Source: Akkermansiaceae bacterium
GTDB lineage: Bacteria > Verrucomicrobiota > Verrucomicrobiia > Verrucomicrobiales > Akkermansiaceae
Length of the DNA: 41,971 nucleotides
Direction: 5' to 3'
Assembly (NCBI GenBank): GCA_947491475.1
Contig: CANLKN010000025.1
Location: forward strand, 1-41,971
In this document: one piece after another, positions 21,925 to 30,676 of the stretch
Layout of the letters: each line of letters starts with the position of its first letter
Numbering within the stretch: position 1 is the stretch's first letter
Position numbers and translations under genes: made by a program
Notes under the pieces: generated by a model
The model's input: only the letters and a program-made list of their open reading frames with translations
Databases searched by the model: none
What the model was told of the DNA's origin: nothing

Positions 21925-23784
21925 ATGGCCGCAGACTACACCGAAGCAGACATCAAATCCCTCGATTGGCGCGAACACATCCGCATGCGCCCCGGCATGT
22001 ATATCGGCAAACTCGGCGACGGCACCTCGCCCGACGACGGCCTCTACATCCTGCTCAAGGAGGCCATCGACAACTCGATCGACGAGCACATCATGGGCTA
22101 CGGCAAGGAGATCAAGGTGGAGATCGACGATGAAGGCCGTGTGGAGGTGCGCGATTTCGGACGCGGGATTCCGTTAGGAAAACTTTTCGACTGCGCGGCA
22201 CAGATCAACACCGGAGCCAAGTATGACAGCGAGGCGTTCAAGAAATCCGTGGGTCTCAACGGCGTGGGCATCAAGGCGGTGAACGCCCTCTCCGACTTCT
22301 TCGAGATTCAGGCGTGGCGTGATGGTGAAACCAAGGCGCTCGAATTTTCCAAAGGCCAGCTCACGGTGGATATGAAGCATCCACGGCGCGACGATGGCTC
22401 GAACGGCACGCGGCTCGCCTTCGAGCTCGATCGCTCGATTTTCCCGGCCAAGGCGAAATTCAAGGAGCCCTTCGTCGAGAAGATGTGCCGGTATTATTCT
22501 TATCTCAATCCGGCGCTCACCGTCACCTTCAACGGCAAAAAGTTCCGCTCGAAGGATGGTTTGCTGGACCTGCTGCGCGAGGAAATGGAAAACGAGGCGC
22601 TTTATCCGCCGATCCATCTCATCGGCAAGGACATCGAGATCGCCTTCACCCACACCCCCGAGAGCAGCGAGGAATATTACACATTCGTCAACGGCCAGAA
22701 CACCTCCCAGGGCGGCACGCACCTCGCCGCATTCCGCGAGGCTTTGGTTCAAGTGATCCGCGGGTTCTACAAAAAACAATATGAACCTGCCGACATCCGG
22801 GCTGGCATCGAGGCGGCGATTTGCGTGCGCATCGTCGAGCCGGTGTTCGAGTCCCAAACCAAAACCAAACTCGGCTCCACCACCATCGTGCCCAATGGCG
22901 AGTCGCTGCGCTCCTTCATCGGAAATTTCCTCAAGACCAATCTCGACAACTACCTGCACAAGAATCCGCAGGTCGCCGAGGCGATCCAAAAACGCATCCA
23001 AGCCGCCGAGCGCGAACGCAAGGACCTCAAAGGCGTGCAGAAAATCGCCCGCGAACGCGCCAAACAGGCGAAGGTCCACAACAAGAAACTGCGCGACTGC
23101 CGCGTCCGCTTCGATAGCAAGCACAAGCGCCGCGAGGAATCCACGCTCTTCATCACCGAGGGCGACTCCGCATCCGGCTCGATCACCAAAAGCCGCGACG
23201 TGGAAACGCAGGCGGTGTTCTCGCTCCGCGGCAAACCGCTCAACACCTTCAGCCTGCCGCGCAAGATCGTCTATGAAAACGAGGAGTTCGCCCTGCTCCA
23301 GGCCGCTCTCAACATCGAGGACGGCATCGAGTATTTGAGATACAACAAAGTCGTCATCGCCACCGATGCCGATGTGGACGGCATGCACATCCGCCTGCTG
23401 CTTCTTACATTTTTCCTCCAGTTCTTTCCGGAAATGATCCGCGACGGACATTTGTATATTTTGCAAACGCCGCTGTTCCGCGTCCGCAACAAGAAGGAAA
23501 CGATCTATTGTTATGATGACGACGAACGCCGCAAGGCGCTCAACAAGCTTGGCAAGAACTCGGAGATCACCCGATTCAAGGGGCTTGGTGAGATTTCACC
23601 CGACGAGTTCGGCTTCATGATCGGCCCGGAAATGCGCCTTGATCCCGTGGAATACGAAGAAGGCAAGGGAGTAAAGGAGTTGCTCGCCTTCTACATGGGC
23701 AAGAACACGCCGGACCGCCAGGATTACATCATCGCGAATCTCCGCGAGGATGTGGACAAGCAGATTGAGGCCGCCGTGGCGTGA
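21925..23784 (+). CDS. parE: DNA topoisomerase IV subunit B
   Basis: This 619-residue type IIA topoisomerase ATPase subunit has the GHKL motifs ([45 protein letters not shown]), the transducer Lys loop ([12 protein letters not shown]) and the TOPRIM motifs EGDSASGS and [17 protein letters not shown] replaces the usual RGKxLNV. The compact length matches the Bacteroidota/Verrucomicrobiota ParE-like group rather than GyrB of about 800 residues. It works with a ParC subunit to decatenate chromosomes; parC is not adjacent in the window. It converges on the phosphorylase gene with a 14-bp gap. Confidence 0.93.
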
Positions 23785-23798
23785 GCCCCAGCAGGCGC

Positions 23799-25466
23799 CT
23801 ACTTCGCCGCGTAGATTTTCTTGTAATACTCGTCAGCCATGCGGTCGGCGTCGAAGAAAGGAGCCACGTCGTTCATCGAGTTGAAGACCATGCGGCTCCA
23901 TTCGGCGGGATTGTCATAATAGGTCGGCAGCACCTTTTCATTGAGAAGATCATAGAATCCGAGCAGGTCATGGCGGTCGCGTTCCTCCGGGCTGAGCTCT
24001 GGATTGGCGGGCTCGATGATGAACGAGTTTTCACCGTCCTTGGCGAACTCGCAGACCCAGCCGTCGTAGGTGGAAAGGTTCACCGAGGCATTCATGGCCG
24101 CGGTCATGCCGGAGGTTCCGGATGCCTCGCGGGTGACCACGGGGTTGTTGAGCCAGATGTCCGAGCCGTTCTTGAGGAAACGCGAGAGTTCAAGCTCGTA
24201 GCCGACGAGCACCGTGGCATTGGGGAAGTCGCGGGTGGTGCGAATCAGATGGTTGAACATATCGATGGCGCCGTAATCGAAAGGATAAGGTTTGCCGGCC
24301 CAGATCATTTGCACCGGGTATTTGCCGTTGCCCAACATCTCGCGAAACAACTTGATATCCCGCGTGATGAGGTCAGGGCGCTTGTATCCGGCGAAGCGGC
24401 GCGCCCAGACGATGGTCAGCACGTCGGGCTTGAACAGCTTGCCGGTCTGGTCGGCCACGACACGGAAGAGGCGCTCCTTGAGTTCGCGCTTGCGATGGCG
24501 GAGCTCCTCGGCGCTGCCCTGCTTGCGGGCGTGCTCGAGCCCGTGATCCGCCCAGTATCTCTTGTTCTGGGCATTGGTGACGTGGGTGATCTCGCAAAGA
24601 TCGGGGAAATCCTTCCACATCTGGCGTGAGACTTCACCATGGAGCTTGGAAACTCCATTGGCGATGCGTGCGAGCCGCAGGGCGGCCAGCGAGTGGTTGA
24701 ACACATCACCTTGAATGCCGGTAATCTCGCGGACCTCTTCTTGAGGCACGTTTCCAAAAAACGAGAAATCGCGCAGCAAGTTGAAATCGTGGCGCTCGTT
24801 GCCCGCGTCCTCCGGCGTGTGGGTGGTGAACACGAGGCGCTTTTTCACCTCCTCCAAGCTGTGGTGCTTCTCATAAAGATGGAATGCGGCGGACAAGCCG
24901 TGTGCTTCATTGAGGTGCCAGACCTCTGGATCCACGCCGAGTTCGTCAAGCAGGCGTGCGCCGCCGGCTCCGAGCACGATGTATTGGGCGATGCGGCGCA
25001 GGTGGTCGTGATCGTAGAGACGGTGCGTGATGGCACGCGAGAGCGCGTCGTTTTCCTCCACATCCGTGCTGAGGAAAAACATCGGCACCGTGCCGAAAAT
25101 ATCACCGGGCAGGAACATCGCCTTCACCCACACCGGGTGGCCATGCACCGGCACGGTGAAACGAATGCCGGTATCCTGCAGGAACGCGTATTCCTTCTTG
25201 CGGAACTGAATCGCCAGCTCGCGGTCCTCACCGCGCGCCTGGTTGTAGTAGCCGTAGGTCCAGAGGATGCCGATGCCGCAGAGGTTCTGCTTCAAATCCG
25301 CCGCGGAGCGCATGTGCGATCCGGCCAGGAAGCCAAGGCCGCCGGAATAGACTTTGAAACTCTGGTCGATGCCATATTCGCAGGAGATGTAAACGGCGCT
25401 CTTGGCGTATTGCGGATCGATTTCGTAATGGTGGGAGAACGGTTTGGGAAGAAAAGAGGAAGCCAT
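23799..25466 (-). CDS. glgP: short-form GT35 alpha-glucan phosphorylase homologue without the PLP lysine
   Basis: This 555-residue protein has the fold signatures of the short alpha-glucan phosphorylase group: YSGGLGFLAGSH, VWHLNEAHG, TTHTPEDAGNERH, WARRFAGYKRPDL and EASGTSGMTAAMN. In working phosphorylases the last motif is EASGT(S/G)xMK with the lysine that binds pyridoxal phosphate; here Thr455 stands in that place. Similar MTAAMN-type proteins occur, as I recall, in Bacteroidota, so this may be a real subgroup with a different mechanism (for example nucleotide-sugar-dependent transfer) rather than a dead enzyme. It is monocistronic. Confidence 0.85.
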   Translation of the reverse strand: MASSFLPKPFSHHYEIDPQYAKSAVYISCEYGIDQSFKVYSGGLGFLAGSHMRSAADLKQNLCGIGILWTYGYYNQARGEDRELAIQFRKKEYAFLQDTGIRFTVPVHGHPVWVKAMFLPGDIFGTVPMFFLSTDVEENDALSRAITHRLYDHDHLRRIAQYIVLGAGGARLLDELGVDPEVWHLNEAHGLSAAFHLYEKHHSLEEVKKRLVFTTHTPEDAGNERHDFNLLRDFSFFGNVPQEEVREITGIQGDVFNHSLAALRLARIANGVSKLHGEVSRQMWKDFPDLCEITHVTNAQNKRYWADHGLEHARKQGSAEELRHRKRELKERLFRVVADQTGKLFKPDVLTIVWARRFAGYKRPDLITRDIKLFREMLGNGKYPVQMIWAGKPYPFDYGAIDMFNHLIRTTRDFPNATVLVGYELELSRFLKNGSDIWLNNPVVTREASGTSGMTAAMNASVNLSTYDGWVCEFAKDGENSFIIEPANPELSPEERDRHDLLGFYDLLNEKVLPTYYDNPAEWSRMVFNSMNDVAPFFDADRMADEYYKKIYAAK

Positions 25467-28477: not shown

Positions 28478-29935
28478 TTACCTTCTGGCAAATCCATCCA
28501 GGTTTGGCGACAAGGCACCAGCATCAGCTTGTGAGCGAAGGTATACATTGCGGTGCAACCTACCTGTTGCATTGGGCTGCCAAGACAGGATCTGGAAATT
28601 GCTTTGGCCGGAACGTTCGGGCGAATCCACACTGTCGGGATTAAGACAGTTTCGGTCGAAGACGCAGCCCTCAATCACAATGCCTTTGTTGGGATTCTTA
28701 GCCCGGCCATATTCGTCAATTTCTGAGTCCGTGTTGCAGATCATGAGACCTGCACCCGCATTGCCAACAAAGCTGCAGCGTAGGATCCTGACATTTACGC
28801 AAGCTCCCTCCAAATCAAGGCCAACACCATCATGGCACGCTACCTTGAGTTCCCAGTGAGGTTGACGGGTGATGCCATTGAAGGCGCATTCCACGATGTC
28901 GATGTCGGAGCAAGATTGCAGAAACGCCCCGCAGACACCCGACGAACTAAAGCCACCGCCGGAGTAGACATGGAAATCCTTGATAAAGGCACCTGCCACA
29001 TTGTTGAGCATGAAACTTCCCTGCAAGGATCCGTATGCGATTGACCGCATTAAGGTCACGTTGCGAATCAGGACAGCGTTGGGCTTCTTGGGCCAATAGA
29101 ATGCGGTGGCAAATTCCGTATCGCAACCAATGAAGCGGCAATCGGTTACGGTCACTCCTGTAACAAGAGCATTCCCCTCAGCGTAATCAAAATCGCCCAA
29201 GGATCCGCCGATGAAAATGGCTGCATTCCAAAACACTCGATCCCCCCTGCCTTCAGTGATGCGCTGCCCTAAAGCTTTGATTCCATTTTCGTAGAAATAT
29301 TGGTCGGGATGGGCTGCAATACCATTGAAGCGGCAATTAACCACCTGAAAACCCACCTGTGCCCGTCCGCTTTGCTGAATGTATATTCCTGCCTTCCCAC
29401 CCTTAAAGTCGATCCCGTCAATTTTCACATGGGACGATTTTCGCAGGGTGATACCCTTAAAACCACCAATCGGGATTTCCATCACTTTGCCATTATCAAT
29501 GGGATACGCCTCGGTTCTAAGATGCGGATCGATTGAAGGGCAGTTGATTTGCGGGGCTTTCGCTGTCTCATCCCCATAATTACTAATGACTACCGCATTT
29601 CCCTCGCTTCCACCTCCACTCAAAATGATTTCCTCGCTCCACTTGTCGCCTCGGCGCAGGTATATGCGATCACCAGGCTGCAGTCGCAGGTTCTTTAGAT
29701 GCTGGAAGGATTGCCAGGGACGCTCCGGACTTCGACCGTCATTGGCATCGGAGCCCTGCTCGGAGCTAAGATAAAACGATCGTAGTGCAGGACCAACATT
29801 CGCCGAATACACTGGAAATTCAGGCATCTCAGGCACCAATGCGAGGCTTGTCGCGGTCGTAATAGGGCACATGATCATAAGTGGGAGTAGAATTGCGCAG
29901 ACCTTTATTGGGAAGAGAGTTGGCTGATTTTTCAT
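28478..29935 (-). CDS. secreted right-handed beta-helix protein
   Basis: This 485-residue protein starts with a signal peptide (MKNQPTLFPIKVCAILLPLM region) and then FYLSSEQGSDANDGRSPERP with PWQSFQ and PGDRIYLRRGDKW, the DUF1565/pectate-lyase-like opening of parallel beta-helix proteins. The rest is a series of short repeats with VxxCxFxG-type turns (VVNCRFNGI, VTDCRFIGC, VECAFNGI, ILRCSFVGN, IEGCVFDRN) that build the helix. It may bind or cut a polysaccharide, but no catalytic residues can be assigned. Base composition is lower in GC than the flanks, which suggests transfer. The frame is open upstream into a deoA fragment; the signal peptide marks the true start at 29935. Confidence 0.8.
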   Translation of the reverse strand: MKNQPTLFPIKVCAILLPLMIMCPITTATSLALVPEMPEFPVYSANVGPALRSFYLSSEQGSDANDGRSPERPWQSFQHLKNLRLQPGDRIYLRRGDKWSEEIILSGGGSEGNAVVISNYGDETAKAPQINCPSIDPHLRTEAYPIDNGKVMEIPIGGFKGITLRKSSHVKIDGIDFKGGKAGIYIQQSGRAQVGFQVVNCRFNGIAAHPDQYFYENGIKALGQRITEGRGDRVFWNAAIFIGGSLGDFDYAEGNALVTGVTVTDCRFIGCDTEFATAFYWPKKPNAVLIRNVTLMRSIAYGSLQGSFMLNNVAGAFIKDFHVYSGGGFSSSGVCGAFLQSCSDIDIVECAFNGITRQPHWELKVACHDGVGLDLEGACVNVRILRCSFVGNAGAGLMICNTDSEIDEYGRAKNPNKGIVIEGCVFDRNCLNPDSVDSPERSGQSNFQILSWQPNATGRLHRNVYLRSQADAGALSPNLDGFARR

Positions 29936-30016
29936 CGTGCTGCTAGGAATTTGCTTTGTGCGGGAGGCCCCTGAAACAGCCCTTGGACCGGACCGGAGGC
30001 GGGGGAAAAAGGGGGT

Positions 30017-30505
30017 GTTCATGGAGTTGAGGATGGTGTGGACTTTCACGCTCATTTCCTTACCGACGGCAATCATGCTGGCGGCGAGAATCTCTGCGTC
30101 CTTGCGGGTTTTCATGAAGACTCCGCTGCCGAATTTAACATCCAGCACCAACCGGTCGAGCGAATCAGCCATTTTTTTGGACATGATGGAAGCGGTGATG
30201 AGTGGGATCGAGGGCACGGTGCCGGTAACGTCACGCAGGGCGTAGAGTTTTTTATCGGCCGGGCAGAAGCGGTCCGTCTGCCCCATCATCACCACGCCGA
30301 TCCGTTCCAACTGGGCGGCCGCCTCGGCGAGCGAGATATGGACATTGAATCCCGGGATCGATTCCAGTTTGTCGAGCGTGCCTCCCGTGATGCCGAGACC
30401 GCGCCCGGACACCATCGGCACCCAACAACCGGTGCAGGCCACGAGTGGGGCCAGAATGAGCGATGTTTTGTCTCCAATGCCGCCTGTGGAATGCTTGTCA
30501 ACGAC
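30017..30505 (-). pseudogene. deoA: internal fragment of thymidine phosphorylase
   Basis: About 163 codons match the middle of thymidine/pyrimidine-nucleoside phosphorylase: VVDKHSTGGIGDKTSL, SGRGLGITGGTLDKLESIPG, MGQTDRFCPADKKLYALRDV, PLITASIMSKKMADSLD and LDVKFGSGVFMKT. This corresponds to about residues 82-245 of the ~440-residue enzyme. The first ~80 and last ~190 residues are absent, and there is no matching sequence in the other frames. Phosphate- and base-binding residues in the middle are intact, so the loss is recent. It lies in frame with the upstream end of the beta-helix gene but is not part of it. Confidence 0.9.
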
Positions 30506-30676
30506 GAACGGACACGACGAACGGATGTCGCAGCATTCCTTTGTAAATGATGCCTTTGGTGCAAATGGTGGTGTCCTTTTCATGATTAATTTTCGCCCGG
30601 GCTCCACTCTTCGGAGAAAGCCGTTGCAACAATGCCTCATCGGAACGCCTCGCATTCCCGCTCCGGAAAGAACTAT

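Follow-up and report, generated by a model that had tools for sequence, protein, structure and literature searches.

A subfamily of GT35 glucan phosphorylase homologues with threonine or serine in place of the pyridoxal phosphate lysine in Bacteroidota and Akkermansiaceae-like Verrucomicrobiota

According to PMC8950772, the characterised enzymes of glycosyltransferase family GT35 are alpha-1,4-glucan phosphorylases without exception, and in PMC11046441, pyridoxal phosphate (PLP) is treated as a covalent cofactor of this family. In MalP, the PLP lysine is K646, and the phosphate is coordinated by K534, K540 and K554 (PMC11046441). The same review proposes that a proto-GT35 enzyme used NDP-sugars, and that PLP could have replaced a nucleoside monophosphate in it. 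PMC8950772 treats retaining GT4 phosphorylases alongside GT35 and ascribes to them a front-side mechanism with the phosphate as proton donor. Among the papers listed in searches of an open-access library of journal articles, we found no description of a GT35 group that lacks the lysine. Here, we analyse such a group, starting from one protein encoded in a stretch of 41,971 nucleotides from an Akkermansiaceae bacterium (contig CANLKN010000025.1), referred to below as the window.

The gene is an open reading frame with an ATG start and no internal stops, and it encodes 555 amino acids (Table 1). The protein is a GT35 homologue and scores 421.7 bits against TIGR02094 (cut-off 191.7) and 67.6 bits against Pfam PF00343 (cut-off 27). 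The initial annotation had pointed out that threonine stands where the signature EASGTxxMK has the Schiff-base lysine, and that the other GT35 motifs are preserved. Both observations proved correct: residues 447-455 read EASGTSGMT, and the quoted motifs WARRFAGYKRPDL and TTHTPEDAGNERH are both found. The basic phosphate-site residues (R-R....K) are present in the window protein as well; by analogy with MalP, we take R356, R357 and K362 to be the residues of the PLP phosphate and the substrate phosphate. No second GT35 gene was found with PF00343 or TIGR02094 in the genome of the window (3.89 Mb, 96.6% complete).

Table 1. Coordinates of the GT35-like gene and its motifs in the window, and of diverged copies on plasmids (positions within the respective loci)
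Feature	Position	Strand	Basis or remark
555-aa GT35-like protein, Thr/Ser type	23799..25466	(-)	ORF, TIGR02094, PF00343, AlphaFold model
EASGTSGMT, residues 447-455	24102..24128	(-)	E447, catalytic-site Glu; T455 at the PLP-lysine position
WARRFAGYKRPDL, residues 354-366	24369..24407	(-)	R356, R357 and K362 kept in both types
TNAQNKRYW, residues 297-305	24552..24578	(-)	TNAQ(N) stands where lysine-type proteins have TNGVH
TTHTPEDAGNERH, residues 214-226	24789..24827	(-)	H216; pairs with the GT5 'HN' histidine (profile alignment)
KVYSGGLGF, residues 38-46	25329..25355	(-)	Glycine loop GGLG; K38 almost fixed among Thr/Ser proteins
Diverged Thr-type copies, Bacteroidota plasmids (Pontibacter, Runella)	L214 5977-7632; L215 5947-7611; L172 1956-3617		

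The AlphaFold model of the protein (50 sequences) has a mean pLDDT of 91.2 and a pTM of 0.90, and its weakest block (residues 441-450, pLDDT 65) is the loop just ahead of EASGT. The nearest solved structure is a phosphorylase with the GT-B fold, the glycogen phosphorylase of Segatella copri (9l6i; Z 34.4, 2.4 A over 535 residues, 30% identity); the Foldseek E values are 2.3e-43 for 9l6i and 1.7e-44 for its mutant 20yr. With this TIGR02094-type alpha-glucan family phosphorylase, the window protein shares the fold and the order of motifs; it differs from the lysine-type members in Thr/Ser for Lys and in 27 further columns, with TNAQ(N) for TNGVH among the changes. TIGR02094 scores are 396-446 bits for five Thr/Ser proteins versus 544-627 bits for five short lysine-type proteins. 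The classical GT35 enzymes MalP (Z 31.6) and GlgP of E. coli share the GT-B fold (Z 30-32), the EASGT..M motif and the R/K residues of the phosphate site; however, classical enzymes from E. coli and mammals are longer by about 240-290 residues, and the window protein lacks their PLP lysine. The model is also close to solved GT5 enzymes, including the ADP-bound starch synthase IV (6gne, Z 31.2) and E. coli glycogen synthase (3cop, Z 31.0), over 441-453 residues. In GT5 (E. coli GlgA 2qzs and Arabidopsis SS4 6gne, Z about 31), the fold is again GT-B, and the conserved Glu, R and K align, whereas identity to the window protein is only 15-17%. It should be noted that the absence of a fold from the structural match list carries no information.

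Position 455 is T in 114 and S in 21 of the 135 distinct members of this type (two plasmid proteins included), whereas the lysine column is K in all 45 distinct relatives that were read from outside it, namely 18 from the set of the window's kin, and 15 and 12 from two further sets. Among the window's kin, T or S was found in 32 of 32 type members (30 from genomes of the same genus, the window itself, and one from a genome of another family), and K in 18 of 18 other relatives. Within the genus, the protein is present in 31 of the 36 other genomes searched and is 76-90% identical where whole; in one genome (G024), the gene is split across two contigs, and one of the five remaining genomes has just a 44-aa fragment. 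In a scan of named genomes, 574 relatives were confirmed, and the best 80 of the 574 read T or S without exception (80/80). These best 80 include Verrucomicrobiota (Luteolibacter, Haloferula, Persicirhabdus, Rubritalea, and many Akkermansiaceae and Verrucomicrobiaceae assemblies, some of them titled Akkermansia muciniphila), as well as Bacteroidota (Larkinella, Spirosoma, Dyadobacter, Emticicia, Flavobacterium, Chryseobacterium, Persicobacter and others). A further set of sequences gave T or S in 10 of 10, four being repeats of genomes already read. Sampling of 296 Bacteroidota genomes separated two score classes: 35 matches in 33 genomes lie at 803-1013 bits, and the next match lies only at 463 bits. 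The upper class reads T or S in 28 of 28 fetched proteins (with at least one repeat; the motif was read in 29 of the 35 matches), and the lower class reads K in the 12 fetched of its 70, the 463-bit match among them. The Thr/Ser clade occurs in Bacteroidota and in Akkermansiaceae-like Verrucomicrobiota. Nine longer lysine-type proteins of Bacteroidota (L159-L163, L166-L169) read EASGTSG[QE]K; thus, the Met preceding the lysine is not fixed there.

The codons at position 455 were counted in 133 Thr/Ser proteins, the census being confined to such proteins by construction. Threonine is encoded by ACC (47), ACG (31), ACT (18) and ACA (16), and serine by TCC (8), TCT (5), TCG (4), AGC (3) and AGT (1). 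The use of nine different codons indicates that the hydroxyl residue was kept through synonymous turnover. The dN/dS ratio against ten near relatives is 0.05-0.11 (dS being partly saturated), and the subfamily is under strong purifying selection. A pseudogene or a base error is ruled out by T/S in 135 of 135 proteins, the codon census and dN/dS, and the earlier view that the gene is conserved rather than decayed is confirmed by the same figures and the intact reading frame. We also considered fusion partners in two long frames (L108, 860 aa; L069, 1239 aa), and rejected them, as the N-terminal extra parts look like read-through of an upstream open frame; a Pfam search of that of L108 gave no match.

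To place the change in a phylogeny, the lysine column was removed from an alignment of 69 Thr/Ser and 29 lysine rows (without four classical proteins and without Thr/Ser rows more than 88% alike). In the resulting 98-row tree, the two types are split by one branch with support of 100/100, and a single change of state is needed. In a second tree of 63 rows (reduced from 69), with classical GT35 and GT5 and without GT3, the Thr/Ser clade of 24 rows is again whole (100/100); it is sister, with support of 98/99, to two short lysine-type proteins, one from a Bacteroidota genome (L158) and one from a distant Verrucomicrobiota genome (L133), within the lysine-type proteins. Since the clade is nested among lysine-type proteins, the lysine appears to have been lost, rather than never gained, and it was most likely lost once. 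For the same reason, a relic that predates PLP is disfavoured. Both conclusions carry the caution that the long classical and GT5 branches meet in the 63-row tree. The initial annotation had suggested that an 'MTAAMN' group might form a clade of its own: a single clade was indeed recovered, but the group is wider than that label, with serine for threonine in the 21 members counted above. Judging from the alignments, these proteins make up one GT35 subfamily without the lysine of the PLP Schiff base, in which the rest of the putative catalytic machinery is kept. All but one of the Thr/Ser proteins of Verrucomicrobiota form a single branch (44 rows, 100/99) inside Bacteroidota sequences in the 98-row tree, which points to transfer of the Verrucomicrobiota copies from Bacteroidota. 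The exception, L150, comes from another family of the same order and is basal to the whole Thr/Ser clade; thus, the history of transfer is not quite so simple.

The columns of the alignment (140 proteins after merging of identical ones) were compared between 107 Thr/Ser and 29 lysine-type sequences, before 28 more were added. A column was taken as different if a single residue accounted for 90% or more of the Thr/Ser sequences and a different one for 75% or more of the lysine-type sequences. Besides the lysine, 27 columns differ in their prevailing residue, including TNAQN for TNGVH (299-301), Y304, S50, A188, W354, P393, E424, F474 and F482; G422 (N/D in the lysine type) just misses the list. 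The residues E447, S449, G450, T451, S452, R357, K362, N298, Q300, H216, W305, E424 and K432 are invariant in all 135 Thr/Ser proteins; R356 is found in 134 (K in one), W354 in 133, and position 301 is variable, with N in 120. All 134 ungapped rows retain the GGLG loop. Presumably, by assignment to residues of the rabbit muscle enzyme, the conserved residues are those that hold glucose and phosphate in known phosphorylases. The sugar and phosphate sites look intact in these alignments, and the cofactor anchor is gone.

Two lysines could in principle replace the lost anchor, so that PLP would still be bound covalently. K432 is found in 135 of 135 and K38 in 132 of 134 ungapped Thr/Ser rows, whereas lysine-type proteins have mostly T/V and P, respectively, at these columns. 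However, K38 lies just before the GGLG loop of the N-domain and is replaced by R or A in two members, K432 lies near the end of helix 425-434, and, judging from the sequence and the predicted model, neither would adjoin the EASGT loop; we regard a substitute lysine as very improbable.

A second alternative is that the protein is catalytically dead, i.e., a pseudoenzyme, regulator or scaffold that binds a glucan or metabolite and uses the phosphorylase fold for binding only. The loss of the cofactor anchor is in line with this, as are the lack of a conserved neighbour gene across the group (see below) and the fact that the 14 tested genomes without the protein include several with glycogen genes. 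On the other hand, a pure binder would hardly need E447, R357, K362 and H216, which are kept in 135 of 135 proteins over two phyla; a role of this kind appears unlikely, yet it is a serious alternative.

We searched 49 genomes for glycogen genes: 35 carriers of the Thr/Ser protein and 14 non-carriers (in Bacteroidota, a non-carrier is a genome without a match at 1e-60, with at most four candidates scored per genome). In 32 of the 35 carriers, the search showed no GT35 besides the Thr/Ser protein; the other three (G135, G161 and G476) also match classical phosphorylases. Five genomes of the window's genus (G001, G003, G011, G013 and G024) hold both the Thr/Ser protein and a short lysine-type protein, and one more (G035) also has a classical phosphorylase; thus, the types are not exclusive and are not simple substitutes for each other. 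Full-length matches to GT5 occur in 23 of the 35 carriers, above the GlgA cut-off in 12 Bacteroidota and below it in 11 Verrucomicrobiota, including the genome of the window (GT5-like, 272-295 versus 328 bits). Four further carriers have GT3, so that a GT5-like or GT3 synthase is present in 27 of 35. The search gave no full-length GT5 and no GT3 glycogen synthase in the remaining eight; these are four genomes of one genus, g18 (G060, G061, G121 and G066), which is probably Akkermansia, and G164, G587, G552 and G594, the last of which has GlgC with an adjoining GT4-like gene. In at least 23 of 27 Bacteroidota genomes, a separate frame of 259-315 aa (for example, G473:C11:904611-905306) corresponds to GT5 glycogen synthase over the N-terminal half only.

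Branching-enzyme matches (E <= 1e-20) were found in 35 of 35 carriers and 13 of 14 non-carriers, above the curated cut-off in 21 of the 49 genomes; being nearly universal in both groups, they make co-occurrence uninformative. Genes of family GH77 were found in 14 of 14 carriers versus 2 of 6 non-carriers in the window's family (Fisher p 0.003, uncorrected for kinship), and in 11 of 19 carriers versus 3 of 8 non-carriers in Bacteroidota. At E <= 1e-30, GlgC had no match in any of the Verrucomicrobiota genomes tested, carrier or not, and none in 6 of the 19 Bacteroidota carriers. If the donor of the protein is a nucleotide sugar, UDP-glucose is, therefore, at least as likely as ADP-glucose in those genomes.

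The protein could still be an alpha-glucan phosphorylase, either with PLP or another B6 phosphate bound non-covalently, or with PLP-free catalysis like that of the retaining trehalose phosphorylases of GT4. Glycogen phosphorylase needs the phosphate of PLP and not the imine, and reduced (non-imine) PLP still supports catalysis. What disappears with the lysine is only the covalent anchor; thus, tight non-covalent binding of PLP is possible. Retaining GT4 phosphorylases, for their part, are not known to need PLP. Their front-side use of phosphate as the source of the proton, as described in PMC8950772, is a precedent for the PLP-free variant, although GT4 trehalose phosphorylase belongs to a different family and is likened here by description, not by sequence. 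The residues that bind glucose and the two phosphates in phosphorylases are kept. As the only GT35 protein found in 32 of the 35 carriers, with a GT5-like or GT3 synthase present in 27 of the 35, the Thr/Ser protein could be the degradative partner. However, the lysine is kept in 45 of 45 relatives outside the clade, so that its loss was hardly neutral; the 27 other differing columns speak for altered chemistry or an altered ligand; and the co-residence of both types in five genomes of the window's genus does not fit simple substitution. We consider retained phosphorolysis rather unlikely, yet a serious alternative.

The reading that we tentatively prefer, while holding it to be somewhat short of probable, is an active, retaining GT-B alpha-glucosyltransferase without covalent PLP, in which a nucleotide sugar would be the most economical occupant of the vacated pocket. 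In the place of PLP, there would be the nucleotide moiety of such a donor, with UDP- or ADP-glucose as the likeliest candidates; R356, R357 and K362 would hold the diphosphate, and E447 and the GGLG loop the glucose; the hydroxyl of T/S455 would take the position of the second Glu of EX7E enzymes, adjoining the ribose; and glucose would be passed to the end of an alpha-glucan or maltodextrin. In short, a phosphorylase may have become (again) a transferase that uses nucleotide sugars. The initial annotation had suggested a function other than PLP-dependent phosphorolysis, such as nucleotide-sugar-dependent transfer or glucan binding, and this is supported in part, by the conservation of the gene, its separate clade and the missing Schiff-base lysine.

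Structurally, the chief argument for a nucleotide in the empty pocket is the position of the lysine column. In EX7E transferases, the second Glu is in contact with the nucleotide's ribose. In the profile alignment and in the 63-row alignment, the PLP-lysine column lies 8 residues past the catalytic Glu of GT5, i.e., at the position of this second Glu, and is Y in 3 of 3 GT5 proteins. Two GT3 glycogen synthases read EPWGYTPLE, that is, E-x7-E, the spacing being taken by eye, with GT3 outside the alignment. It should be noted that comparison of sequences and structures gave no direct sign of nucleotide binding in the Thr/Ser proteins. The KTGGL motif is present in 3 of 3 GT5 proteins read, while the window protein reads K-x-Y-S-G-G-L-G, and its score against the GlgA profile is 18.8 bits (cut-off 328.45). 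With the same profile, five Bacteroidota Thr/Ser proteins score 41-49 bits, and five lysine-type proteins score 40.4, 31.0, 23.8, 12.5 and none. In hhalign comparisons with a GT5 profile of three sequences (from 12 fetched GT5 loci, the others having been missed by the motif filter), the probability is 94.7 for the Thr/Ser profile and 93.1 for the lysine-type profile. We therefore rejected GlgA-like character as a trait of the Thr/Ser type: the score ranges overlap with those of the lysine type, and the hhalign values hardly differ.

In favour of the nucleotide-sugar reading, we count the single clade and the loss of the lysine, the low dN/dS, the kept catalytic residues and the 27 remodelled columns, the E+8 position of the lysine column, the similarity to ADP-bound GT5 (Z about 31), the 32 of 35 carriers without another GT35, and the eight of 35 without GT5 or GT3. 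The proposal in PMC11046441 that PLP could have replaced a nucleotide is counted on the same side. Against it, we count that the Thr/Ser profile is hardly nearer to GT5 and that GlgA scores overlap with the lysine type; that 27 of the 35 carriers already have a synthase and the lysine type is co-resident in five genomes; and that the phosphate-site residues of phosphorolysis are all kept, with no group-wide partner gene found. Under this reading, the subfamily would be a natural reversal of the PLP-for-nucleotide step proposed in PMC11046441. A stronger version is doubtful: here, the clade as a whole, across two phyla, would have undone the step proposed for the origin of glycogen phosphorylase, expelling PLP and readmitting a nucleotide sugar to the same pocket. 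The result would be an NDP-glucose glucan synthase that annotation still takes for GlgP and that provides the synthase activity of the eight carriers without full-length GT5 or GT3, probably including the genus Akkermansia.

By descent, the Thr/Ser protein is a member of GT35; however, it ought not to be classed with the PLP-dependent alpha-glucan phosphorylases, because the lysine that defines this class was tested for and is absent. Consequently, 'glgP' calls in many genomes of Bacteroidota and Akkermansiaceae, and glycogen pathways derived from them, may be wrong. A large natural subfamily in which the PLP lysine was lost and its replacement then conserved makes the proposed exchange of PLP and nucleotide in GT-B enzymes directly testable, and the lysine-type sister group is available for swap mutants, L133 and L158 being the best controls.

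In 80 loci, no neighbour gene common to the whole group was found. The most common neighbour cluster occurs in 14 of the 80 loci, all in Verrucomicrobiota, and is FAD-linked-oxidase-like by eye, without a family search; a conserved operon was, therefore, rejected. These counts were obtained with ORF calling that favoured long antisense frames in GC-rich DNA and, in 6 of the 80 loci, failed to pick even the target gene, so that neighbours were missed as well. Among viral contigs, 101 pattern matches included no relatives. In PLSDB, two plasmid-borne members were found, from Pontibacter actiniarum (52% identical) and Runella rosea (51%); both read EASGTSGMT and TNAQ, and both are annotated as 'glgP: alpha-glucan family phosphorylase'. 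According to the annotation of the Runella plasmid, the next gene encodes a protein of the pyridoxamine-oxidase family, and SDR and TauE genes lie upstream. A second copy in one genome (G666) has neighbouring frames that, read by eye, are alike in length, look and order, which suggests that the plasmid copies and this second copy could be one travelling island.

In the window itself, the positions 21925-23784 (+) encode a 619-aa GyrB/ParE-like B subunit of a type IIA topoisomerase, a divergent paralogue whose scores fall far short of the curated NCBIfam cut-offs (at best, 418 versus 740 bits). Another frame, 28478-30655 (-), encodes 725 aa; its start resembles pyrimidine-nucleoside phosphorylase in a motif (KHSTGGIGDKTS), and after about 215 residues it looks like a secreted beta-helix-type protein. 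This frame may be a disrupted gene that reads on into a new one.
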